Of a stretch of DNA of 64,000 nt, positions 46,722 through 59,260 are shown in pieces. The position numbers were made by a program, and so were the translations under genes. The stretch is from positions 1 through 64,000 of the forward strand of contig NZ_QREG01000006.1 of assembly GCF_003386095.1 (NCBI RefSeq). The letters are read 5' to 3'. The first letter of the stretch is position 1; the number at the start of each line of letters is the position of its first letter. The notes beneath the pieces are model-generated. The model worked only from the letters and a program-made list of their open reading frames with translations, was not told the DNA's origin and did no database searches. Source of the DNA: Marinoscillum furvescens DSM 4134 (GTDB lineage: Bacteria; Bacteroidota; Bacteroidia; Cytophagales; Cyclobacteriaceae).

Positions 46722-47939
46722 CTATGTGGTGTACATGGAGTTGAACATCACATAATCTGTGGTGAGGTCTGTACCCCATCCCACGGCAGTTGCTCTGCCT
46801 TCTCGTAATTTCATTTTGATGATAATCTCCGACTGCTTGAGGATTCGCTTCACCAGGTTCATGTCAAACTCCAGCGGCCTGCCTTGTTCCAGCATTTTCA
46901 CTTCCTCATTTTCATTACCTAGCCAGAGGTCTACTTTATCTGTATCAAATTCTACGCCAGACCTGCCCATGGCGGCTAAAACCCTACCCCAGTTGGGATC
47001 TCGGCCAAACATAGCCGTTTTCACCAGTGAAGAGTCCGAAACCACTCTTACGATTTTCCGAGCATCCTCCTGAGTACGTGCACCAGAGAGGTGGTATTCG
47101 ATAAACTTACTGGCGCCTTCACCATCAGAGATAATCAGCTTGGCAAGGTGTACCATCAGCTCTTTAAGTTTTTCTTTGAAAGTGATGTAATGCGGATCAC
47201 TAGCGGAGGTAATCATATCATTATCCGCCAGTCCATTTGCCATGATGCTCGCCATATCGTTGGTAGAAGTATCACCATCTACTGTGATCATGTTAAAAGA
47301 CTCGTCCACAGCCTCTCTAAAAGCCTTATCGAGCAGCTTTTGATCGATGTTGATATCAGTAAAAGCAAACGCCAGCATGGTAGCCATATTTGGATGAATC
47401 ATTCCAGATCCTTTGGCTATTCCTCCGATATTGATGGTATTGCCATCTATATCAAACTCCACATACCCTTCCTTGGCGAAAGTATCGGTGGTAAGGATTG
47501 CATTGGCTGCAAAACTACCCGCACGACTATTCTCAGAGATTTTCTTTACATTTTCTTTGATACCAGCCACTACATCCTCGGTAGGAAAAGCTTTTCCGAT
47601 GATTCCTGTAGAGGCGATCAACACCTGATTGGTATCCAGTTTCAGTTCCTCAGCAGCAGCTTTGGCCATAGCCAATGCACCTTCTTCGCCCTGCTTGCCG
47701 GTCACAGCATTGGCATTACCCGAGTTTACCACAATCGCCTGCGCGGTATTATTGGTTTCCTCCAGGTGCTTCTTAGTGAGCTTGATAGGCTCAGCTATCA
47801 CAAGGTTTTGGGTAAACACTGAAGCAACTTTGGCAGGCACTTCTGAATACATGATGGCCAGGTCTCTTCGCATGGATTTTACACCCGTATGAGCTCCCCA
47901 GCATTTTATTCCACGTACGTTGGTTATATTCCTGATCAT
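46722..47939 (-). CDS. argJ: Bifunctional ornithine acetyltransferase/N-acetylglutamate synthase
   Basis: The 405-residue ArgJ carries the self-cleavage and active-site block KGSGMIHPNMATML; cleavage before the Thr of MATML gives alpha and beta chains and makes the Thr the nucleophile. 'TDTFAKEGYVEF', 'VDGDTSTNDM' and the C-terminal 'GWGTDLTTDYV' are also family blocks. It moves the acetyl group from N-acetylornithine to glutamate, closing the acetyl cycle and giving ornithine. Some members also use acetyl-CoA; which type this is cannot be decided. It is the last gene of the minus-strand operon, 18 bases after argC. Confidence 0.95.
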   Translation of the reverse strand: MIRNITNVRGIKCWGAHTGVKSMRRDLAIMYSEVPAKVASVFTQNLVIAEPIKLTKKHLEETNNTAQAIVVNSGNANAVTGKQGEEGALAMAKAAAEELKLDTNQVLIASTGIIGKAFPTEDVVAGIKENVKKISENSRAGSFAANAILTTDTFAKEGYVEFDIDGNTINIGGIAKGSGMIHPNMATMLAFAFTDINIDQKLLDKAFREAVDESFNMITVDGDTSTNDMASIMANGLADNDMITSASDPHYITFKEKLKELMVHLAKLIISDGEGASKFIEYHLSGARTQEDARKIVRVVSDSSLVKTAMFGRDPNWGRVLAAMGRSGVEFDTDKVDLWLGNENEEVKMLEQGRPLEFDMNLVKRILKQSEIIIKMKLREGRATAVGWGTDLTTDYVMFNSMYTT

Positions 47940-47957
47940 TTCTTTACTATGTAGTTT

Positions 47958-48995
47958 TTACGGTTGTATTGGTGCGATACTCAGCCCATCTGTTTCATTG
48001 AGCCCGAGCATCAGATTCATGTTTTGTACGGCCTGGCCCGCTGCGCCCTTCATCAGGTTATCGATCACCCCAATGGTGATGATGGAGTTGGTACGTCCAT
48101 CATAGGTGACATAGATATCGCAGTAGTTTGTACCTCTCACTTGCTTGAGGCTCGGCAAACTGTTGCGTAACCTTACAAATGGTTCGTTTGCATAATATTC
48201 CTCAAATACTTTTTCCAACTCCTCGGTGGAGACGCTCTTCACCGGAGTGGAATAGCAAGTAGAAAGTATGCCCCTATCTACCGGTAGTAAGTGGGGGGTA
48301 AACAGCACCGTAACCTCATCATTAGCATATTTGCTGATGATTTCTTGAATTTCTATCGTATGACGATGTGACTTGATACCATATGCGGTGAAATTGTCAT
48401 TGACCATAGGGTAATGCGTGTTGGGCTTTGCTTTGATCCCCGCTCCGGTCACCCCTGTTTTTGAGTCTATGACTATTCTGCTTTTGTCTATCAGCCCCTC
48501 TTTGAGTAATGGTGCCAATGCCAATATAGAAGACGTTGGAAAACACCCTGGGTTTGCTACCAGTCTGGCATCCTTGATACGCTCTCTAAACAACTCTGGA
48601 GCACCAAAAACCGCTTGCTCAAAGCCGGCTTCAAAATTATGCTCTTTCTTGTACCAGGCTTCGTACACTTCCTTGTTTGAAAGTCTAAAGTCACCACTCA
48701 AATCAACGATTTTAAACGCCTTATCATGGTTGGCTTTTACGAAATCCATGGATACACCATGAGGCAGTGCCAAAAACACCAAATCAAGGTCCATCTCAGA
48801 TATATCATCGATACCTACCAGCTCTGGCTCAAAAAGCCCTTGAAACTGCGGGTGTACGTCTGAAAACTTCTCTCCTTTTCTGCTCTCTGAGGTAATGGCC
48901 GCAATATTCACCCCAGGGTGATTGATCAATACCCTTACCAGCTCGCTCCCGGTATATCCGGTAGCCCCTACTATTGCTATATTTTTCTTCGCCAT
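47958..48995 (-). CDS. argC: N-acetyl-gamma-glutamyl-phosphate reductase
   Basis: The 345-residue protein has the Rossmann start 'IAIVGATGYTGSELVRVL', the catalytic Cys in VANPGCFPTS, and the His in 'KSHRHTIEIQEI'. It reduces N-acetylglutamyl phosphate to the semialdehyde with NADPH. Its start shares one base with the end of argD, and argJ follows in 18 bases. Confidence 0.95.
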   Translation of the reverse strand: MAKKNIAIVGATGYTGSELVRVLINHPGVNIAAITSESRKGEKFSDVHPQFQGLFEPELVGIDDISEMDLDLVFLALPHGVSMDFVKANHDKAFKIVDLSGDFRLSNKEVYEAWYKKEHNFEAGFEQAVFGAPELFRERIKDARLVANPGCFPTSSILALAPLLKEGLIDKSRIVIDSKTGVTGAGIKAKPNTHYPMVNDNFTAYGIKSHRHTIEIQEIISKYANDEVTVLFTPHLLPVDRGILSTCYSTPVKSVSTEELEKVFEEYYANEPFVRLRNSLPSLKQVRGTNYCDIYVTYDGRTNSIITIGVIDNLMKGAAGQAVQNMNLMLGLNETDGLSIAPIQP

Positions 48996-50188
48996 TATCT
49001 AAGTTCTTTTATGGATTGTAGCAGTACTTCAAAAACGGTTTTCCAGTCTTCCATAGGAATGTTCAAAGGGGGCACGAGTCGGACCACATTACCAGCCGTA
49101 GCATTGGCCAGCACTTTGTGATTCATCATGGCCACCACTATTGGCTTTGCCTCCACGGTAAGCTCTATCCCCAACATCAATCCATAGCCGCGTACTTCTT
49201 TGATCTCTGGATAGTCTGGCTTCACCTTTTCGATTTGATCTTTCAGCCAGGCTCCTTTTTCTACTGCCTGGTGCATCAGATCTTCTTCTTCTGTCACCTC
49301 TATGCAAGCCAAAGCTGCTGAACACACAAGTGGATTACCGCCGTAGGTAGTACCGTGATCTCCCCAGTCTATCGCTGATCCCACGCGCTCTGAGGCCAGC
49401 ACCGCCCCGATAGGCACACCGCCACCTAGTGCTTTGGCCAGCGTCATTACGTCTGGCTTTACATCAAAATGCTCATGAGCAAACCAGTGCCCAGTACGGC
49501 CCATACCGCACTGCACTTCATCAAAGATCAGCACGATGTTTTGCTCATCACAGTACTGGCGCAGTTCTTTCAAAAACACGGGATCAACTGGATTGACACC
49601 CCCTTCGCCCTGAATGGGCTCCAGCATAATACCCGCTACATCATCATTTACCTTTTCTTTGAGCAGGTCCATATCATTGAATGGCACATGGCAAAAGCCC
49701 TCTGGAATAGGTGCAAAGCCCTGCATCATGGCTTCCTTGCCTGTGGCAGCCAGAGCAGCAAGAGTTCTACCGTGAAAGGCATTTTTCATGGCAATGATGG
49801 TACCACCACGTCCATTCTTACTCGCATATTTTCGAGCGATTTTAATGGCTCCCTCTGCAGCTTCTGCTCCGCTGTTGCCAAAAAATACGCGCTGAAGACC
49901 GGAGAGGTCTGCCAGCTTCTTTGCGAGCTTGATCTGTGGCTCACTCACATAAAAGTTGGAAATATGAATCAGTTCATTTGCTTGCTTGCTGATAGCTTCA
50001 GCCAATTTGGGATGTGCATGACCGAGGTTGTTTACAGCAATGCCCGCTAATGCATCGATGTACTCATTACCTTCCATATCCCATAGCCTGGATCCCTTGC
50101 CTTTTTTGAACGCCAAAGGATAGCGGCGAAAAGTAGGCAAGTAATACTGTTTGTCTAATTTGTGTAATTCTTCTGTTGAATAACTCAT
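48995..50188 (-). CDS. argD: Acetylornithine aminotransferase
   Basis: The 397-residue class-III aminotransferase has 'GNEYIDALAGIAVNNLGHAHP', 'LIFDEVQCGMGRTGHWFAHE' and the PLP-lysine block TLAKALGGGVPIGA. It converts N-acetylglutamate semialdehyde to N-acetylornithine. The related ornithine aminotransferase is possible, but the operon places it in arginine biosynthesis. It lies 3 bases downstream of argB. Confidence 0.9.
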   Translation of the reverse strand: MSYSTEELHKLDKQYYLPTFRRYPLAFKKGKGSRLWDMEGNEYIDALAGIAVNNLGHAHPKLAEAISKQANELIHISNFYVSEPQIKLAKKLADLSGLQRVFFGNSGAEAAEGAIKIARKYASKNGRGGTIIAMKNAFHGRTLAALAATGKEAMMQGFAPIPEGFCHVPFNDMDLLKEKVNDDVAGIMLEPIQGEGGVNPVDPVFLKELRQYCDEQNIVLIFDEVQCGMGRTGHWFAHEHFDVKPDVMTLAKALGGGVPIGAVLASERVGSAIDWGDHGTTYGGNPLVCSAALACIEVTEEEDLMHQAVEKGAWLKDQIEKVKPDYPEIKEVRGYGLMLGIELTVEAKPIVVAMMNHKVLANATAGNVVRLVPPLNIPMEDWKTVFEVLLQSIKELR

Positions 50189-50191
50189 TGG

Positions 50192-51010
50192 TTATTTGGA
50201 AATTATTGTACCTATTGGTTTATGTTCTAAAATAGCGTCTGTAAGGGTTTTGAGCCTGGTGCCATTGACAATTCGCGCCGACTGTGCGCCATTATCGATC
50301 GCAATCTGGCAAGATTCGATTTTGGGGATCATGCCGCCTACAATGACTTTTTGAAAGAGCGGCTGCAGCTCATGCACTTGCAACTGCTGAATCAGTGAAG
50401 AAGCATCATCCTTGTCCATCATCAGTCCGTCAACATCCGTGAGAACGCAATAGTGATCTGCCGAAATGGCGCCTGCCACGGCACCAGCCATCATGTCTGC
50501 GTTAATGTTGTAGGTATTGCCTTGCTCGTCAGGGGCTACACAGGCAACTACGGGAATGTAATTTTTGTCCAGCAGATCAAAAAGTATCGTTGGGTCTATC
50601 TGATCGATATTGCCAACTTGCCCCAAATCTACAGGATTTTCAGCTTCTTCTTGATGAAATCGCTTAGAAGCTCGTGCGAGTCCTCCATCTTTACCACTGA
50701 GACCTACTGCTCGCTGGCCCAAATGATTGATCAGCGTAACCAATCCGGAATTGACCTCACCTAGCAAAGTCATCTCTATATATTTCATCGCCTCTGGGGT
50801 GGTTTTTCGGTGTCCACCGATAAACTCCGAGGTGATTTGGACTTTCTCTAAAATGGAATTGATAAAAGGTCCTCCGCCATGGACGACCACTACGCGATGG
50901 CCTGCGGCATGCAGCTCACAGATATTTAGCATTACGGAGCGCTTGATCTCATCATTGACCATAGCGTTGCCTCCATACTTGATGACAATCGTTTCTTTCT
51001 GGTTGATAAT
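50192..51010 (-). CDS. argB: N-acetylglutamate kinase, non-standard start codon
   Basis: The first ATG (50962) would give a 256-residue protein starting MVNDEIKRS, which lacks the essential 'IVIKYGGNA' motif with the ATP-binding Lys. The minus strand directly upstream encodes exactly that motif in frame (IINQKETIVIKYGGNAM). It has no ATG, GTG or TTG back to the stop codon (TAA) about 75 bases upstream. The most likely start is ATT at 51010 (then ATC AAC CAG AAA), or another ATT or ATC nearby. The other blocks are intact: 'VVVHGGGPFINSILEK', 'NINADMMAGAVAGA', 'GGMIPKIESC'. It phosphorylates N-acetylglutamate. It follows the coiled-coil gene by about 45 bases. Confidence 0.85.
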   Translation of the reverse strand: MINQKETIVIKYGGNAMVNDEIKRSVMLNICELHAAGHRVVVVHGGGPFINSILEKVQITSEFIGGHRKTTPEAMKYIEMTLLGEVNSGLVTLINHLGQRAVGLSGKDGGLARASKRFHQEEAENPVDLGQVGNIDQIDPTILFDLLDKNYIPVVACVAPDEQGNTYNINADMMAGAVAGAISADHYCVLTDVDGLMMDKDDASSLIQQLQVHELQPLFQKVIVGGMIPKIESCQIAIDNGAQSARIVNGTRLKTLTDAILEHKPIGTIISK

Positions 51011-51053
51011 TGTGTGGGTTTGTAAAATTGATTGAGAATTTTCGCTGAAAAGC

Positions 51054-51896
51054 TTACTTTATTAACCGCTCTCGTTGCATTTTGTTCAGCAAACTATCTG
51101 ATTTTTTCAAAATTTGGGCGTTTTCGACCACCATCGTCCTCAACCTCCAATGAAAATGCTTCAGGCTTTTCATCTGCCCCATCTGCTCTCCCAATCCTAT
51201 AGACAGCTCATCCAGCGCTTCGGTATTGCGTGCGGAGTTGCGCATTAGCGCCAGAATTTTTTCAGACTGCCATTGTAGTGAGTCTGCCACCTGCTCCCAT
51301 TGGATATTTTGAGCGGCTACTTCCTCATGAAGTGCGTTGAGCATACGCTCCTGCCTCTGAGCTGACTGCACTTGCGCACGATGTGTGACCTGCAAAGAAG
51401 CCAGCAGACATAGTATCACCAGCACAAACCCCGCCACTACAGCGTTGAACATCTGGCGGGAGCGCTTTTCTGATAGTGTCTTAAAGTTGCGTTTCGCCAG
51501 AAGTTCCAGGCGATGACTGAGCGTATACCGCCTATTGGCGAGGGTGAGAAGCTTAGAAGCCAGCGCCAGGTCTGGCAAGTAGGCAGGCTCTGCTGAGTTT
51601 TCCTCCCCACACCTTACCGTATTGTCCTGCATCGGAAAAGCCTCCCAACTATGGATGTATCCGTGCTTTTCCAGAAAGGCCACAAAATCCAGTGTAACCA
51701 TGAGGTGAATCATCACTGAGTCCATGCCCTCATCCTCCTCGAGGTACACAAACAGCTTTTGCTGATAACTGCTTAGCTCCAGCATGCCTTTGGGCCAACC
51801 CACACGCACAAAATCCATAATGGAGTAGGTAGCCTGCTGTCTACCGACCAGGTCTTGTATCACGCGTTTTTCATGCTCACTAAAGCTATGCATCAT
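51054..51896 (-). CDS. Membrane coiled-coil protein, unknown function
   Basis: The 280-residue protein is not recognised. It has an alpha/beta N-terminal region (1-150), one membrane helix (about 155-175, 'FNAVVAGFVLVILCLLASL') and a long coiled coil outside or inside the membrane (about 180-280, 'EERMLNALHEEVAAQ', 'LNKMQRERLIK'). No enzyme motif is seen. It lies in the middle of the eight-gene operon, overlapping the racemase gene by 4 bases and preceding argB. A scaffold or export helper is possible but pure inference. Confidence 0.65.
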   Translation of the reverse strand: MMHSFSEHEKRVIQDLVGRQQATYSIMDFVRVGWPKGMLELSSYQQKLFVYLEEDEGMDSVMIHLMVTLDFVAFLEKHGYIHSWEAFPMQDNTVRCGEENSAEPAYLPDLALASKLLTLANRRYTLSHRLELLAKRNFKTLSEKRSRQMFNAVVAGFVLVILCLLASLQVTHRAQVQSAQRQERMLNALHEEVAAQNIQWEQVADSLQWQSEKILALMRNSARNTEALDELSIGLGEQMGQMKSLKHFHWRLRTMVVENAQILKKSDSLLNKMQRERLIK

Positions 51897-53053
51897 TTCA
51901 CGATTTTGCGAGGAATGGCGGCCGGCAGACGGCTCAGCATTTCATTGTTCATCAGCTGGGTGACTTGGGTAAAAGAGCTAATATTGATGGTATTGTTTTT
52001 TTGCTTGCCTACCAGCACCACTTCTTCGCCAACCTCCACATCAGGGATATGGGAGACATCTACCATGAAAAGGTTCATATTAATCAAGCCCACCACTGGT
52101 GCTTTCTTTCCCTTGATGAGTACGTATCCACGATTGGACTGCCCACGGGGATAGCCATTGGAGTAGCCCAGCGGCAGCACTGCCACGCGCATGTCTTGTG
52201 TAGCCTGATAGGCAGTGCCATAGCCTATAAACTCACCTGCCCTGACGTCCCGTACGTCCATCACATCGGTCTTCCAGGTAAAAATTCGCTTGAGTGGTGA
52301 TACATTGTTGCGTCCGCCCTGCTCCTGCATGTGTAGGTAGTAGATGTCTGGGCTGGGCCAAAAGCCATACTGTGACACCCCCATCCGCACCATATCATAC
52401 ACCGTGTCTTTGTAAGCCAAAGCTGCCGCCGAACATGCTATATGCCGGATTTCCGGGAGCATCTTACGTTTTTCACACTGCTTTAAAAATTCTTTGTACC
52501 GCTCATGCTGCGAAGTGATTTTAAACTGATTGGAAAAACTCTCCGCACCGCCAAAATGAGTACACAAGCCCTTAAAGTGGATGTCCTTGGCATGCTTTTT
52601 TAGAAACTTGAGGGTGTCTGGAAATTCCGAGGCCTGCATACCGGTGCGGTTGGCTCCGGTCTCTACTTCTATATGTACTTTGGCGGGAATCCCTAATGCC
52701 TGAGCTCGCTCCAGCACATACGGAAGCCGCTCATAGTTGAAGACATAAAACTCTATTCCATTGCTAATGGCCCAGTCAATATCCTCCTTGTACAAAATAC
52801 CCATGATCATAATGTCTGACCCGGCTGACCTGGCCTCCAGCACCTCCTCGGCTTCAAAAGCCGATGCGGCCGCAAAGTGATCGACTCCTGCCTTTTCGGC
52901 CATTTTCACAAACTGATGAATGCCATGGCCATACGCATTGGCTTTTACTACAGAAGAAATACGTACCCCAGGACCTATTTTTTTGCGGATAAAATTGATA
53001 TTCTTGGTTAGCGAAGATTGACTCAGCTCTATTCTTGACGAGTGTCTTACCAT
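51893..53053 (-). CDS. Alanine-racemase-family PLP enzyme
   Basis: The 386-residue fold-type III enzyme has the PLP Lys37 (VVKANAYGHG), Arg136 (GANRTG), Arg223 and the catalytic Tyr278 (GYGTAY), plus the 'LPLGYSNGYPRGQSNRG' block. This is the alanine-racemase family. The usual 'GRVCMDQ' substrate-pocket block is changed to 'GLINMNLF' (residues 322-329), so Asp is Asn and Gln is Leu. A different or broader amino acid substrate, such as ornithine or another diamino acid, is possible. It overlaps the neighbouring genes by 7 and 4 bases in the operon. A housekeeping alanine racemase would usually not sit here. Confidence 0.85.
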   Translation of the reverse strand: MVRHSSRIELSQSSLTKNINFIRKKIGPGVRISSVVKANAYGHGIHQFVKMAEKAGVDHFAAASAFEAEEVLEARSAGSDIMIMGILYKEDIDWAISNGIEFYVFNYERLPYVLERAQALGIPAKVHIEVETGANRTGMQASEFPDTLKFLKKHAKDIHFKGLCTHFGGAESFSNQFKITSQHERYKEFLKQCEKRKMLPEIRHIACSAAALAYKDTVYDMVRMGVSQYGFWPSPDIYYLHMQEQGGRNNVSPLKRIFTWKTDVMDVRDVRAGEFIGYGTAYQATQDMRVAVLPLGYSNGYPRGQSNRGYVLIKGKKAPVVGLINMNLFMVDVSHIPDVEVGEEVVLVGKQKNNTINISSFTQVTQLMNNEMLSRLPAAIPRKIVK

Positions 53054-55035
53054 AGTTTTATTTGTTGGTTCCAGACATATGATTTCCCCCAGCTGGCACG
53101 TGCCAGCTGCTCTACTTGATGGAGTTCTTTTTCAGGCACTTTGGGTACCAGCTCTTTGATATCTAGCGGATTGTAATGAAAGGCATACAACCTCGCCGTA
53201 AACTGATGAATGGGCAATGACGACTCGCCAAACTTCTCCCCATGACCATAAACCGAAGGCTCTATCCCTTGCCCCCAGTCTTGTCTACCTTCATTGTTGG
53301 GATTGAGAAAATAAGCCCGCACTTGCCCTTGGTCATCCTCTGCTACTCGCAAAAGCGAAACCGCATGAAAACCGACCATATCTCCTTTAGAGCTGGTGAT
53401 AAAGATGCCCACGGGATTGGGGTATGCCATCTCCCGTCCACCATTATAATGTGGGTGAAATGACGCGTAAAAGATGCGCACAAAGCCTTCAAAATCCAGG
53501 ATACTATTGCTCAGGTAGTCGTAGCATGAGGCAAACCCCAGCTGAATCCACTGACCATACATGGAGGGGTTTACCCATTTGTGGGGATCTTCACCACGCC
53601 CGGAAGAACGCTTCATCATCTCGTTGTACAGCTTATCGAGATGAGGCACCAATATCACCGAAACCGGATCCAGGTTATAGTCTAGCTTTTCCAGCAACCC
53701 CTTTCCAAGCTGATTAGAGGTGAGGTCATGGTTTTCATAGCGCATCACCAGATTATTTTGAGTAGCCACCGTGATGATCATGTCGATCAGCTTAGCAGGA
53801 GCATGCTGACTCCACATACTAATCCCTCTGGCTGACTGGCAAGTAGGGTTGTTGCCCTGACCTACCCCCAGCGGCTGGCCCAACACTTTGATGACTCCTC
53901 CCAACAGGTACTGTAAGGCAGTTACCTCCTCGGCAGGATGAGCTACTGACTTTAAGATGCGCTTTTCTACCTGGGAGTTCAGCTTGATTCGGCGTAGGTT
54001 TTCGAGCCCTACTCGAACGGGCCTTCGGCTAAACAGGTTTTGACCTAACATACGTGCCAGACCGTAGATGCACTGCGCATTGGATGGACTCACCACTTCC
54101 AAAATGATGGTAGTCACAAACTCATGAAATTTTTCCCATTCGGCTATTCCCCGATCATTCAGATCCAAACAATTGGGAACAAGCTCTGGATGCTTTTGGG
54201 CCAAAAACTTCAACAATGCGGCATGGTGCTTACTGACCAGTCCTGTGCTGCTCATGCTGTGCCCCATGGCATCTGCCTCTGCTTCGAGCGTGGAGGGGTT
54301 GCAACTTTCTAAAAAGCGCGTGTAAGCCTCTGTAGACTCATACTCCCGGCAGTGGACCGTAGGAGCACTCACCGCATGAATGTAATGACGCACCTGGCGA
54401 TCAATTTCGCTATCCCCAGAGGTATCAAACCGCTGATCTACCAGCCTAATCAATTCACGCGCTTTGCGAGTGACAATGGGTCGCTGCTCACAGATTAGTT
54501 TGATCTCCTGCGCCAACTTGCTGTACACCCCGTGCAAATCAATTTCTGAGACGATAAAGCCAAACAGGTTGTATGCCTTTTTGAGCTCACGCTCAGACAT
54601 CACACTGCGGGTTTCTTCGGTAGGCTCTTTGAGAGCAAACTCCAGGTTGTGCACCACCACCTCTTCCAGAAAATCCTGAGCTTCCCTGGCCGATATGAAC
54701 GAAGACTCAGCATCGGCCCGTGCATAAGCCAGCAGCCTCAGCTCCGATAGTATCTCGAAGCTAGAGGTAGGATGCCCCGCCTTCAGTGTTCCCTTGACTA
54801 GCGTGGCTACCAGCTTGTCTGGTTCATTCCATGCCGTACCCTCAAAAATCCCCGCCTCATCCAGCAAAGAGCTTTTTTGGTACAAGTAAGTAAGTCCATC
54901 TCTGGTGAGACTAAGCACATCTATTTGGCTCGACAGCTTGGTGGCCTTGTCTCTACGCGTGAGATCTGTTGCTTCAGCAAAATCTTTGAAGCTCTGCTCG
55001 AAATTTTGAAATATCCTCTCGGATGCTTCCTGCAT
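53047..55035 (-). CDS. 662-residue protein with a papain-like catalytic arrangement
   Basis: The family is not one I can name. The first 380 residues are helical. The C-terminal part has a Cys399 in 'GQGNNPTCQSARGISMW', with Gln393 exactly six residues ahead, the spacing of the oxyanion Gln and nucleophile Cys of papain. His557 follows in 'GFHAVSLLRV' and Asn578 in 'YFLNPNNEG', in the papain order Cys-His-Asn. 'DWGQG' after the Asn resembles the papain 'NSWG-GWG'. A peptidase, transglutaminase-like or amidase/ligase role is thus likely. There is no signal peptide, so it is cytoplasmic. It lies 11 bases from the ATP-grasp gene and overlaps the racemase gene. Confidence 0.75.
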   Translation of the reverse strand: MQEASERIFQNFEQSFKDFAEATDLTRRDKATKLSSQIDVLSLTRDGLTYLYQKSSLLDEAGIFEGTAWNEPDKLVATLVKGTLKAGHPTSSFEILSELRLLAYARADAESSFISAREAQDFLEEVVVHNLEFALKEPTEETRSVMSERELKKAYNLFGFIVSEIDLHGVYSKLAQEIKLICEQRPIVTRKARELIRLVDQRFDTSGDSEIDRQVRHYIHAVSAPTVHCREYESTEAYTRFLESCNPSTLEAEADAMGHSMSSTGLVSKHHAALLKFLAQKHPELVPNCLDLNDRGIAEWEKFHEFVTTIILEVVSPSNAQCIYGLARMLGQNLFSRRPVRVGLENLRRIKLNSQVEKRILKSVAHPAEEVTALQYLLGGVIKVLGQPLGVGQGNNPTCQSARGISMWSQHAPAKLIDMIITVATQNNLVMRYENHDLTSNQLGKGLLEKLDYNLDPVSVILVPHLDKLYNEMMKRSSGRGEDPHKWVNPSMYGQWIQLGFASCYDYLSNSILDFEGFVRIFYASFHPHYNGGREMAYPNPVGIFITSSKGDMVGFHAVSLLRVAEDDQGQVRAYFLNPNNEGRQDWGQGIEPSVYGHGEKFGESSLPIHQFTARLYAFHYNPLDIKELVPKVPEKELHQVEQLARASWGKSYVWNQQIKLW

Positions 55036-55046
55036 GTTTACTTGTT

Positions 55047-56270
55047 TTAGACGTAAAAATCCACTTTTTCATAGTGTAAGAGGAGCTCCGTCATGCGGTC
55101 AGGATCTTCGCCTTTGAAATTGATGGTGCCGAAGTGGTTGCCAAACCCTTCGCGATCGTCGCTGATCTTTTGAGTGCTCAACGGCGGCACGAGCGTATGG
55201 TCCACAAAGTACGGCTCATTGTTGAGCTCTTCGGGGATTTCCAACTTCGAAAACTGACGCTTTTGTGGATAGATCATCACATTGCCGTGATAGTTTTTAG
55301 GCTTGAAATCTTTGGGAGGGAAAATCGCATCGAGTTCTTCTTCGGTAGCATTGGGATCATGACAAACCACAAATGCTGCCAGGGCATCAAACTCCCAGGA
55401 TTTGCTAGCCAACTCCAGTATGTGTCCGCCAGGTATTCTACAAGCCGTTTCACCGAAATTGAGCTCGTCATTTTCTGTAAGGAACCACTCGGGGTGTACC
55501 ATACCATATTCTATCCCGAAGATATCGACTAGCTTTTGCACGTGATCGTGGATGAGCTGACGCTTGCTTTCCAGGTAATGGCCTTCAGGGATGAAATTAG
55601 AATAGCCCAGGTGTACATACTCTGTGATGTTAAGAAAGCGGATTTTTCCTTTATGGATAAATGCCTCACAGCTAAACTCTCTACCCGGCAGGTGGCTTTC
55701 GGCCAGGCATGGAAAATCTCCATCCTCGCATTTTTCATCGATATCACTCATCGACCTCAACAAGCGATGCCCTACTGTACCAGCAGATGCAAATGGCTTG
55801 ATATGTACCCAGCTGTCCTCTTCACCTTCCAGCTGCAGGTTCGCCTCATTGAGTCGCTTCATAAAAGCCTTCACGCCCTCTTTGTTGTGCACCTCTTCGA
55901 AAAGCCCCACACGTAAGCCTCCAATAAGTGCCTTTCGCTTCATCATGGCTTTGTTTCGAAAAAGAAAGGCCCGGTTGAGCACACGTGGGTCTCCTCTGTA
56001 GATGGAGTTGAGCGCACCGGCCCACTCTACAGTTTCTTCAAAAAGCGGTACAGCTACGTCCACTCCATAAGGTTGCAATTTTTCAAACAAGTCCAGCGAG
56101 TTGCTAGTATCACTCCATTCGTCTAGCTGATATGGCACAAACGGAATGTTATTTTCTTTAGCATATGGTTCAAAATCTGGAAAGGAAACCACTACGTAAG
56201 GTTTTCCCAGCTTCTCCATACTCTCTATTACGGGCAGACTCCAGCCCATCAATGCAAAACATTTAGCCAT
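55047..56270 (-). CDS. ATP-grasp ligase
   Basis: The 407-residue protein is an ATP-grasp enzyme of the carboxylate-amine ligase type: the N-terminal pre-ATP-grasp fold ('MAKCFALMGWSLPVIESMEKLGKPYVVVSF'), the ATP-binding 'WVHIKPFASAGTVGHRLL', the ATP/Mg block 'LPGREFSCEAFIHKGKIRFLNITEY', and 'LNFGETACRIPGGHI' with the metal-binding Glu and Arg. It resembles the ligases that join amino acids (BacD-like) more than purine or carbamoyl-phosphate enzymes. It would activate a carboxylate as acyl phosphate and join it to an amine. It is the first gene of the operon, so it sits next to the papain-like protein and upstream of the racemase and arg genes. Confidence 0.85.
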   Translation of the reverse strand: MAKCFALMGWSLPVIESMEKLGKPYVVVSFPDFEPYAKENNIPFVPYQLDEWSDTSNSLDLFEKLQPYGVDVAVPLFEETVEWAGALNSIYRGDPRVLNRAFLFRNKAMMKRKALIGGLRVGLFEEVHNKEGVKAFMKRLNEANLQLEGEEDSWVHIKPFASAGTVGHRLLRSMSDIDEKCEDGDFPCLAESHLPGREFSCEAFIHKGKIRFLNITEYVHLGYSNFIPEGHYLESKRQLIHDHVQKLVDIFGIEYGMVHPEWFLTENDELNFGETACRIPGGHILELASKSWEFDALAAFVVCHDPNATEEELDAIFPPKDFKPKNYHGNVMIYPQKRQFSKLEIPEELNNEPYFVDHTLVPPLSTQKISDDREGFGNHFGTINFKGEDPDRMTELLLHYEKVDFYV

Positions 56271-56493: not shown

Positions 56494-56539
56494 GAAAAAG
56501 GGCTGTTCATCTGAAAATACAGATAAACAGCCCTTTTTT
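56494..56539 (-). terminator. Terminator of the lipoprotein gene at 56560
   Basis: Stem AAAAGGGCTGTT/AACAGCCCTTTT with an 18-base AT-rich loop, 20 bases after the stop codon. It separates this gene from the operon at 46722-56270. The bases 56271-56493 hold no gene and probably contain that operon's promoter. Confidence 0.8.
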
Positions 56540-57239: not shown

Positions 57240-58493
57240 TTAATTTCTAATTTGACCGTCACCTATCACCACCCACTTGTAGCTGGTCATTTCTCGCAAC
57301 GCCATTGGCCCTCTTGCATGGAGCTTTTGTGTGCTGATGCCTATCTCTGCACCCAGCCCAAACTGAGCGCCATCGCTAAACGCAGTGGAAGCATTGGCAT
57401 AGACACAGGCAGCATCTACATGCATCAAAAACTGATCAACAACTGCCTGATCCTGGGCCACTATCGCTTCGCTGTGTTTGGAGCTATACCGTGCTATATG
57501 ATCCAGTGCCTCCTCAAAGCTTTCTACTACTTTGATCGACATTTTATGGCTGAGCCACTCCACACCAAAATCTTCAGCTGAAGCTTCCACCAGTAAATTC
57601 TCCTGATACCGCCCTTTGAGCACTGCATGGGCCTGCTCATCAGCAAAGATTTGTACCTCATGAGCCTTATCCATGCCCTCCACCAGCTCTGGCAGGGCAT
57701 CTAGTAGCTCCTCATGAAGTACCAGACAGTCTAGAGCGTTGCAGACACTTACTCTGCGGGTTTTAGCATTTTGCACGATGGCTTTGGCTTTAGCCAAATC
57801 TGCAGACCGGTCCACATAGGTATGCACAATGCCAGCTCCGGTTTCTATCACCGGTATAGATGCATTTTGGCGCACAAAATCGATGAGCCCCTGACTACCA
57901 CGTGGAATAGCACAGTCTATCAGCCCTTCTGCTGTGAGAATATGAGGCAGGGCATCCCGCTCCGGTGGAGCCAGGTAGACTATATCTTGTAGACCATACC
58001 TGGACAGTACTTCCTGAATCACCTTCACAATAGCCAGGTTGGAATCTTTGGCATCTCTGCTGCCCTTAAGCACTGAGGCATTGCCTGTTTTGAGACACAG
58101 CGCAAACACATCAAATGTCACATTGGGTCTGGACTCATAGATCACTGCTATCACCCCGATTGGTACCGAGCGACGTGAGAGCTGAAGGCCATTGTCCAGC
58201 GTGCGCTTTTCCAACTCCTTACCTAATGGTGAGGGCAAGTCAGCGACATTGCGCAGATCATCGGTAATTCCCTTTAGGCGCTCCGGATTGAGTAGCAACC
58301 GATCGTATTTAGGGTCCTGAGGATCCATCCGTTCCAGGTCTTGCTGATTAGCTGCCAGGATTTCACTTTCACGGCTCAAGGCCAGATCTGCAACTTCGTT
58401 GAGAATCTGATGTATTTTTTGATCAGACAAGCCTATAAGCTTACGGCTGGCCTGCTGAGTTCGCTCTAGTGCGGCTAAAATTTGCTCTTTCAT
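57240..58493 (-). CDS. proA: Gamma-glutamyl phosphate reductase
   Basis: The 417-residue protein has the ProA blocks '[24 protein letters not shown]', '[15 protein letters not shown]' with the catalytic Cys, and the end '[23 protein letters not shown]'. It reduces glutamyl phosphate to glutamate-5-semialdehyde in proline synthesis. It overlaps proB by 4 bases (ATGA). Confidence 0.96.
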
Positions 58494-59260
58494 TTTGCTA
58501 ATTCTTCGGTTAGAAATCTGGTACCTATAGCTTTACCAGACAGAATATCTAAGATGATGTTGTCATGCTTGCCATTGGCAATGATGGTCTCTATCCCCTG
58601 AGCAGCAGTAGCAGTGGCAATCTCAAACTTGGATAGCATACCACCTCTTCCCATGCCACTCTTCTCTGTGGAGATGTGAGCACGAACAGAATGGTCGTTC
58701 TGAGGTACATGATGCACCACATCGCCTCCCGGACCGTAGACTCCATCCACATTGCTTAGCAGGATCAATCGCTCAGCACCAATCATGGTAGCGGTAAGCC
58801 CGGCCAGTTCATCATTATCCGTAAACATCAGTTCGGTAAGGGACACCACGTCGTTTTCATTGACGATAGGTACAATACCCTGACCAAGAAGGCCTTCGAA
58901 ACAGTTTACCATATTTTGATAGTGTTCCCCTTCCGAAAAGTCCTCTTTGGTAGCGAGCACCTGCGCACACACTATATCGTATTCGATAAAAAGCTCGAAA
59001 TAGCTTTTCATTAATGAAGTTTGACCTACCGCTGACAATACCTGCCTGCGGATGGCTTCATCTGCAATCTCACTATCTCCAATGATACTACGACCAGCGC
59101 CTACTGCTCCTGAAGAAACCAGCACAGGACTATATCCTGCACGAATAAGCTTCACGAGCTGTACTACTACTTGCCGGAAGATCAATTTATCCAGCGTGCG
59201 ATCTTCACGGGTGAGCACATTGGTACCTACCTTTACTACGATTCTCTTGTTACTCGCCAT
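58490..59260 (-). CDS. proB: Glutamate 5-kinase (no PUA domain)
   Basis: The 256-residue amino-acid kinase has '[15 protein letters not shown]' with the ATP Lys, '[12 protein letters not shown]', '[21 protein letters not shown]', and '[27 protein letters not shown]'. It phosphorylates glutamate for proline synthesis. It lacks the C-terminal PUA domain, as is usual in Bacteroidota. proA follows with a 4-base overlap. Confidence 0.95.

Follow-up and report, generated by a model that had tools for sequence, protein, structure and literature searches.

We found an eight-gene block in Marinoscillum furvescens DSM 4134 (genome G000), on the minus strand at 46722-56270 of a 64,000-nucleotide stretch of contig NZ_QREG01000006.1 (the window), in which the genes for ATPg, an ATP-grasp ligase, for PAP, a protein of 662 residues that belongs to no known family, and for RAC1, an enzyme of the alanine racemase family, share a locus with argB, argD, argC and argJ. 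Comparison with other Bacteroidota leaves us highly confident that ATPg, PAP and RAC1 form a unit, and makes a functional link of this trio to ornithine likely. We propose, at a probability of about 0.5, that argBDCJ supplies free ornithine, which the cassette converts into an amide or a dipeptide, perhaps with a D-residue.

The trio consists of ATPg (55047..56270, 407 amino acids), PAP (53047..55035) and RAC1 (51893..53053, 386 amino acids), in this order. Sensitive searches of Bacteroidota genomes detected PAP in 4 of 395 genomes drawn across the phylum, in 10 of 291 of the order sampled and in 20 of the 244 that the genome collection has for the class of G227. Over the three sets, 30 genomes are PAP-positive, one of which (G235) holds a 57-residue fragment only; a contig search with the window PAP sequence alone, not limited to this phylum, found one locus. 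The trio is present in Marinoscillum sp. MHG1-6. We examined 26 loci of these genomes, the window's own included, leaving out those of G235 and of G719, G743 and G706 (split over contigs), which were available as short match loci only. In 23 of the 26, ATPg, PAP and RAC1 are direct neighbours and keep one order, with an end gene overrunning the contig in 4 of these 23; two more loci break off at contig ends with the trio still incomplete, and one, in G475, is split. This genome, which has the most divergent PAP (42%), carries PAP (L049:5871-7853) and a full-length ATPg (L127:8651-9922, 697 bits) on different contigs. Among 58 genomes that were chosen by hand and not at random, full-length ATPg was present in 7 of the 8 PAP-positive ones, the eighth being G235 with its fragment, and in none of the 50 PAP-negative ones, four of which gave weak partial matches (76-91 bits). 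It is the fixed gene order, together with the confinement of ATPg to PAP-positive genomes among those tested, that makes us regard the trio as a unit.

ArgJ, the glutamate N-acetyltransferase that frees L-ornithine, accompanies this unit. In the window it is encoded at 46722..47939 (minus strand; NF003802, 465 bits), and this is the sole ArgJ match in the genome. The 291 genomes of the order were taken as the same for the PAP, ArgJ and Orr counts, since set size and genome handles agree: PAP occurs in 10, ArgJ in 13 and both in 10, a tight co-occurrence (Fisher 2.8e-16 if genomes are independent; kinship among them means that this and the later Fisher value overstate significance). In a hand-chosen, non-random panel of 15 PAP-positive and 9 PAP-negative genomes, ArgJ was found in 15 of 15 against 0 of 9, although in G104 only as a fragment of 40 residues where the contig ends, and a second argB, over the cut-off or, in G660, in pieces, in 10 of 15 against 0 of 9. 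Physical linkage is loose. The arg genes adjoin the trio in 3 of the 26 loci, following it in G000 and G403 and preceding it in G227, and in G645 the trio lies elsewhere while argBDCJ comes after a cluster of two further racemase genes described below. A sequence-only reading of the window had taken the block for one operon that could build an ornithine-containing amide or small peptide. The grouping of ligase, cysteine protein and racemase (23/26) and the tie to ornithine (ArgJ in 10/10) are supported, and the idea of a single conserved operon is not; the separation of the arg block from its neighbours, which that reading had named as a possible refutation, is seen in physical linkage and not in co-occurrence.

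To our understanding, the arginine route through succinylated intermediates does not release free ornithine. According to the authors of GapMind, arginine synthesis in most Bacteroidetes appears to run via such intermediates, and no ArgA or ArgJ candidate was found in Bacteroides thetaiotaomicron (PMC7311316). The M. furvescens genome has a separate, nearly complete arginine operon of the succinylated-route kind on contig C26 (L119:3978-11697), with a GNAT gene, argG, argC, proC, argF', argB, an argE-like gene and argH; its argF' scored as N-acetylornithine carbamoyltransferase (288.6 against a cut-off of 288). The absence of argF, argG and argH from the window had been remarked on from the sequence, with the advice to look for a second arginine set, and both points are borne out: argF/argF' and argG are not in the window and have their matches on other contigs of this genome, argH was found on C26 (no genome-wide argH search was made), and the second set is the operon just described, apart from argD. 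No argD was found in this operon, nor in the separate operon of G645 (L121), which holds argG, argC, argF', argB, argH and, by eye, proC; a genome-wide search for a second argD was not made. In G660 (L120) an ArgD-family aminotransferase below the cut-off lies inside the arginine operon.

The genome G403 (98% complete, one contig) has a single argB, that of the cassette, beside the trio. Its only PF00185 match resembles, by size and score, the aspartate carbamoyltransferase of its relatives, and argG was not found there in a search of 23 hand-chosen, non-random genomes. As neither argG nor an arginine-type carbamoyltransferase match is present, argBDCJ of G403 cannot, judged from the genome sequence, serve arginine by any route known to us. 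G403 (L044, L080) keeps argBDCJ, the trio and the cluster of further racemase genes; in G475, argG gave no match above noise. Were arginine synthesis the sole role of argBDCJ, these genes should be the genome's only arginine set, and they are not in G000, G645 or G403.

ATPg is a predicted carboxylate-amine ligase. The window protein falls below the Pfam gathering score (PF13535, 22.7 vs 27), and every one of the 22 members aligned, among them that of the window, matched PF13535 at E<=0.01; its 21 relatives share 63-90% identity. The best PDB match is the L-amino acid ligase 4wd3 (E 9.1e-7 with the single sequence, 2.6e-8 with the profile), aligned over profile positions 183-313, which take in a GE-x-A-x-RI-x-GG stretch. 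These matches argue for a recognisable ATP-grasp domain with its catalytic motif.

PAP has Cys399, His557, Asn578 and Asn580, all in its C-terminal part, invariant in 25 of 25 aligned sequences. The order Cys-His-Asn is that required of papain-like peptidases and suggests a catalytic role, and we read PAP as a putative cysteine amidase, peptidase or transacylase-like protein. Family searches gave a best Pfam E of 0.046, nothing in NCBIfam or PHROGs and a PADLOC E of 0.022, and a Pfam scan of all 25 members found no family matched by more than two of them. Against PDB the single sequence reached E 0.99, and the 25-sequence profile E 0.28 and worse (ribosomal protein L5, one antibody chain). Since no usable family or structure match was obtained, 'papain-like' is a statement at motif level only. 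The sequence-only reading, correct about argB, argD, argC, argJ and the racemase, all above cut-offs, and about the ATP-grasp ligase, thus keeps its name for PAP in this limited sense.

RAC1 exceeds the NCBIfam alr cut-off (TIGR00492, 281.6 vs 168 bits), carries both alanine racemase domains (PF01168 and PF00842) and conserves, among 22 sequences, the motifs VVKANAYGHG and GYSNGYPR of the pyridoxal-phosphate lysine and the tyrosine. This places it by sequence in the alanine racemase family. Further racemases accompany the trio: in the 24-genome panel, Ala_racemase_C is present in three copies in 15 of 15 PAP-positive genomes, and among the 9 PAP-negative ones in one copy in 7 and two in 2. The extra Alr-type racemase, RAC2, in many loci adjoins genes for an M20 amidohydrolase, a Na+/solute symporter, a GNAT acetyltransferase, a racemase like the clostridial ornithine racemase Orr (Orr-like) and often an M23 protein. 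PAP-positive genomes usually hold this third gene set as well, away from the trio, and in other genomes it is divided between two places. The Orr-like protein (356 amino acids) matches the ornithine racemase family NF040742 with 327 bits over nearly its full length, and its gene was found in 27 of the 30 PAP-positive genomes. In the order it occurs in 45 of the 291 genomes. Every genome with PAP (10) or with ArgJ (13) is among these, so that the distribution there is nested, with the cassette inside ArgJ and ArgJ inside Orr-like; for the class of G227 the gene was found in 78 of 244 genomes and in 17 of the 20 PAP-positive ones (Fisher 4.8e-7). The M23-family protein that recurs beside M20 and RAC2 is short (L123, L124, L126; L081:5275-5877). 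In G227 it has no obvious signal peptide by eye, with its start taken as that of the open reading frame, and its best NCBIfam match is a region of PRK06148, an odd place for a wall-peptidase domain.

We suggest that two modules meet in the window and are probably transcribed together. The first, argB-argD-argC-argJ, would convert glutamate via N-acetyl intermediates into free L-ornithine, which the second, the trio, would use. The ligase would spend ATP to activate a carboxylate as an acyl phosphate and join it to an amine, with ornithine as one of the two partners. RAC1 may supply or invert a D-configured residue, and PAP, by its Cys-His-Asn site, could hydrolyse, trim or transfer the new amide. 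The third gene set may serve to import and recycle the product, or to interconvert L- and D-ornithine. The odds that the product is an ornithine amide or dipeptide are about even, whereas the involvement of D-ornithine is rather doubtful: with the Orr-like protein at 327 bits against a family cut-off of 480, D-ornithine is a lead and not a result, and the D-ornithine peptide put forward from the sequence alone would be one candidate product. A wider and more tentative reading is that of an undescribed small-molecule system with lateral spread among Bacteroidota, in which producers with argBDCJ and the trio might make an ornithine compound with a D-residue, and a larger number of genomes, with symporter, GNAT and Orr-like genes only, might take it up and recycle it. 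In this reading the product could be a dipeptide, an amide or compatible-solute-like, some recyclers might also use M20 and RAC2, and PAP might be a new cysteine-dependent amidase or transacylase family.

The layout of the locus is as read from the sequence, with all eight open reading frames recovered on the minus strand, separated by gaps of a few tens of bases at most or overlapping briefly. ATPg and PAP are 11 bases apart, PAP overlaps RAC1 by 7, and RAC1 overlaps by 4 the gene of a coiled-coil/membrane protein of 280 amino acids (51054..51896). Some 25-43 bases further on begins argB, for N-acetylglutamate kinase (50192..51028; TIGR00761); after a gap of 3 follows argD, for an acetylornithine-type aminotransferase (48995..50188; TIGR00707, 497 bits), which overlaps by 1 base argC, for N-acetyl-gamma-glutamyl-phosphate reductase (47958..48995; TIGR01850, 431 bits), and argJ begins after a gap of 18. 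Each of the four arg products lies above its curated NCBIfam cut-off. The uncertainty in the position of argB reflects an ambiguous start codon: within 50962-51028 no in-frame ATG, GTG or TTG precedes the conserved KYGGNAM motif, whose own final codon is the first ATG (50962). The window argB must therefore be translated from an ATT-type codon or contain a sequence error; the argB frames of G645 and G403 open at an accepted start codon. For the coiled-coil gene, counted in the sequence-only reading as part of the set, no related gene turned up among the 45 further loci that were clustered (a genome-wide search was not made), and in G403 argB follows RAC1 directly. The coiled-coil gene is probably a non-conserved insertion between the trio and the arg block.

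Upstream, a terminator-like hairpin with a run of U (56495..56538, minus strand; 19 pairs, -29.4 kcal/mol, z -9.74) marks the border of the block, between ATPg and a lipoprotein gene, with proA and proB further upstream (57240-59260, minus strand, both above NCBIfam cut-offs). A pattern scan of the region did not list this hairpin, and promoter- and terminator-like sites in it were not in excess of shuffles. Because the hairpin separates the lipoprotein, proA and proB genes from ATPg, the block is probably transcribed separately from them.

The history of these genes was compared between G000 and seven genomes, namely G403, from another family, and six of the same family. For the housekeeping marker MurF-Alr, from which the row of G273 was excluded for an extremely long branch and a probably wrong reading frame, G403 shows the lowest identity of the seven (41%). 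For ArgJ (81%), ArgD (75%) and ArgB (59%), by contrast, it is the closest to G000, ahead of all six same-family genomes, and its ATPg, PAP and RAC1 are nearer to those of G000 than the ones of four same-family genomes. Lateral transfer between the two lineages would be the simple reading of these identities. Some of the comparisons fit it less well: ArgC is nearly tied between G403 and G645 (65.8 vs 64.9%), the closest ATPg, PAP and RAC1 are those of G645 and not of G403, and the MurF-Alr sequence of G403, at 638 amino acids, is short and flagged for unusual make-up, which makes its number soft. In G627, moreover, PAP and ATPg group with G000, G645 and G403, but ArgJ falls with that of G605, G660 and others; two further members of this genus, G612 and G642, carry ArgJ and lack PAP. 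In this lineage the trio seems to have entered where ArgJ was already present, which speaks against a single co-transferred unit of trio and arg genes.

Several further observations weigh against our proposal. The best family of RAC1 is plain alanine racemase, the Orr-like protein stays below its family cut-off, and Orr-like genes occur without PAP in 35 of 45 Orr-positive genomes of the order and in 61 of 78 of the class. No Orr match was obtained in the PAP-positive genomes G699, G705 and G720 (94, 74 and 88% complete). ArgJ occurs without PAP in G585 as well as in G612 and G642, and argBDCJ stands beside the trio in only three loci, though several of the 26 are short contigs. The window ArgD may also serve arginine synthesis, given that the separate operons of G000 and G645 lack argD. 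In G211, G104 and G699, the only argB over the cut-off coexists with a strong carbamoyltransferase match (161-163 bits) and argG (450-458 bits), and the single argB/argJ set of these genomes therefore probably serves arginine, which would explain their ArgJ. The PAP fold could not be modelled: AlphaFold models of the window and L005 sequences reached a mean predicted local distance difference test (pLDDT) score of 38 over the full length and 33 over residues 375-662, too poor for a fold search. Finally, the ArgJ locus of G671 (L072:3969-6826) has argD, argC and argJ with no argB frame in front: where the argB of relatives sits, about 790 bases between a 289-residue frame and argD hold no open reading frame of at least 200 residues, and the sole over-cut-off argB is on another contig.

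The trio might make an amide or dipeptide of a D-amino acid (e.g. D-Ala or D-Ser) and be unconnected with ornithine, and ArgJ and Orr-like genes might co-occur with it through a common habitat and lateral gene pools. We consider this unlikely, although it is the strongest competitor. It would account for the scores of RAC1 and RAC2 as alanine racemases, for the rarity of arg genes beside the trio and for the differing PAP and ArgJ histories in G627, and arginine synthesis can explain ArgJ in G211, G104 and G699. It fits poorly with the presence of ArgJ in 10 of 10 PAP genomes of the order compared with 3 of 281 without PAP, with the adjacency of argBDCJ and trio, in either order, in families that are only distantly related, and with G403, which keeps argBDCJ by the trio and in which neither argG nor an (acetyl)ornithine carbamoyltransferase was detected.

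An ordinary supply of arginine, proline or polyamines by argBDCJ, with the trio merely on the same promoter, appears improbable to us. The missing argD of the separate operon in G000, the position of proA and proB just upstream on the same strand and the three genomes with a single, probably arginine-serving set would agree with it. The separate operon has argG, argC, proC, argF', argB, an argE-like gene and argH, however, the terminator-like hairpin stands between proA/proB and the block, G403 has neither an argG nor an arginine-type carbamoyltransferase match, and ArgJ was not found in 278 of the 291 genomes of the order.

Least probable of the three is a cell-wall role, in which ligase and racemase would add a D-residue or an ornithine bridge to peptidoglycan precursors and PAP would be a wall amidase. 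Some ATP-grasp D-amino-acid ligases are known to make wall bridges, and the M23-family gene recurs beside M20 and RAC2; yet the G227 M23 protein shows no obvious signal peptide by eye and matches a region of PRK06148 best, and PAP presence varies within genus g3 (G627 with, G076 and G111 without), a poor fit to a core wall change. An antiphage role ranks low, with no PADLOC support.

Among known systems, the L-amino acid ligases of the ATP-grasp superfamily, such as BacD and RizA, resemble ATPg in their ATP-grasp domain, a length of about 400 amino acids and the GE-x-A-x-RI-x-GG stretch. ATPg differs from them in that it scores 36 bits to the nearest solved structure, 4wd3, which we take to be RizA, and has fixed partners in PAP and the racemase. 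The products of RizA are Arg-X dipeptides (PMC9321006). A second likeness is to the glutathionylspermidine and trypanothione synthetase/amidases, in which amide ligation at the expense of ATP goes together with a papain-like (CHAP) amidase and an amine-rich substrate. These enzymes pair ligase and amidase domains in one fused protein, whereas the trio consists of separate genes, includes a racemase and has in PAP a protein without a Pfam match. Both synthetase/amidases have been placed among CHAP proteins (PMC10318531). The Orr-like protein of the third gene set resembles clostridial Orr in the near full-length match noted above, and differs from it in its score below the cut-off and in its neighbours, which are symporter, GNAT, M20 and RAC2 genes and not aminomutase genes. 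Clostridial Orr itself sits with aminomutase genes. Iyer, Aravind and colleagues reportedly described in 2009 ATP-grasp amidoligase neighbourhoods, in which the ligases of predicted metabolite clusters stand beside peptidase-like and racemase-like genes. Among the titles retrieved on ornithine racemase, on ATP-grasp with racemase, argJ or D-ornithine, and on Marinoscillum, we recognised none as this system; the 2009 neighbourhood survey was not compared.

PAP is a conserved protein family without annotation that keeps a fixed partnership with a ligase and a racemase. If our proposal is true, it would give a reason why some Bacteroidota, whose usual arginine route runs through succinylated ornithine, hold a second, acetyl-based route to free ornithine. 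Because the cassette is nested within ArgJ and ArgJ within Orr-like in the order sampled, the idea that some of these bacteria produce an ornithine compound and others recycle it can be tested.

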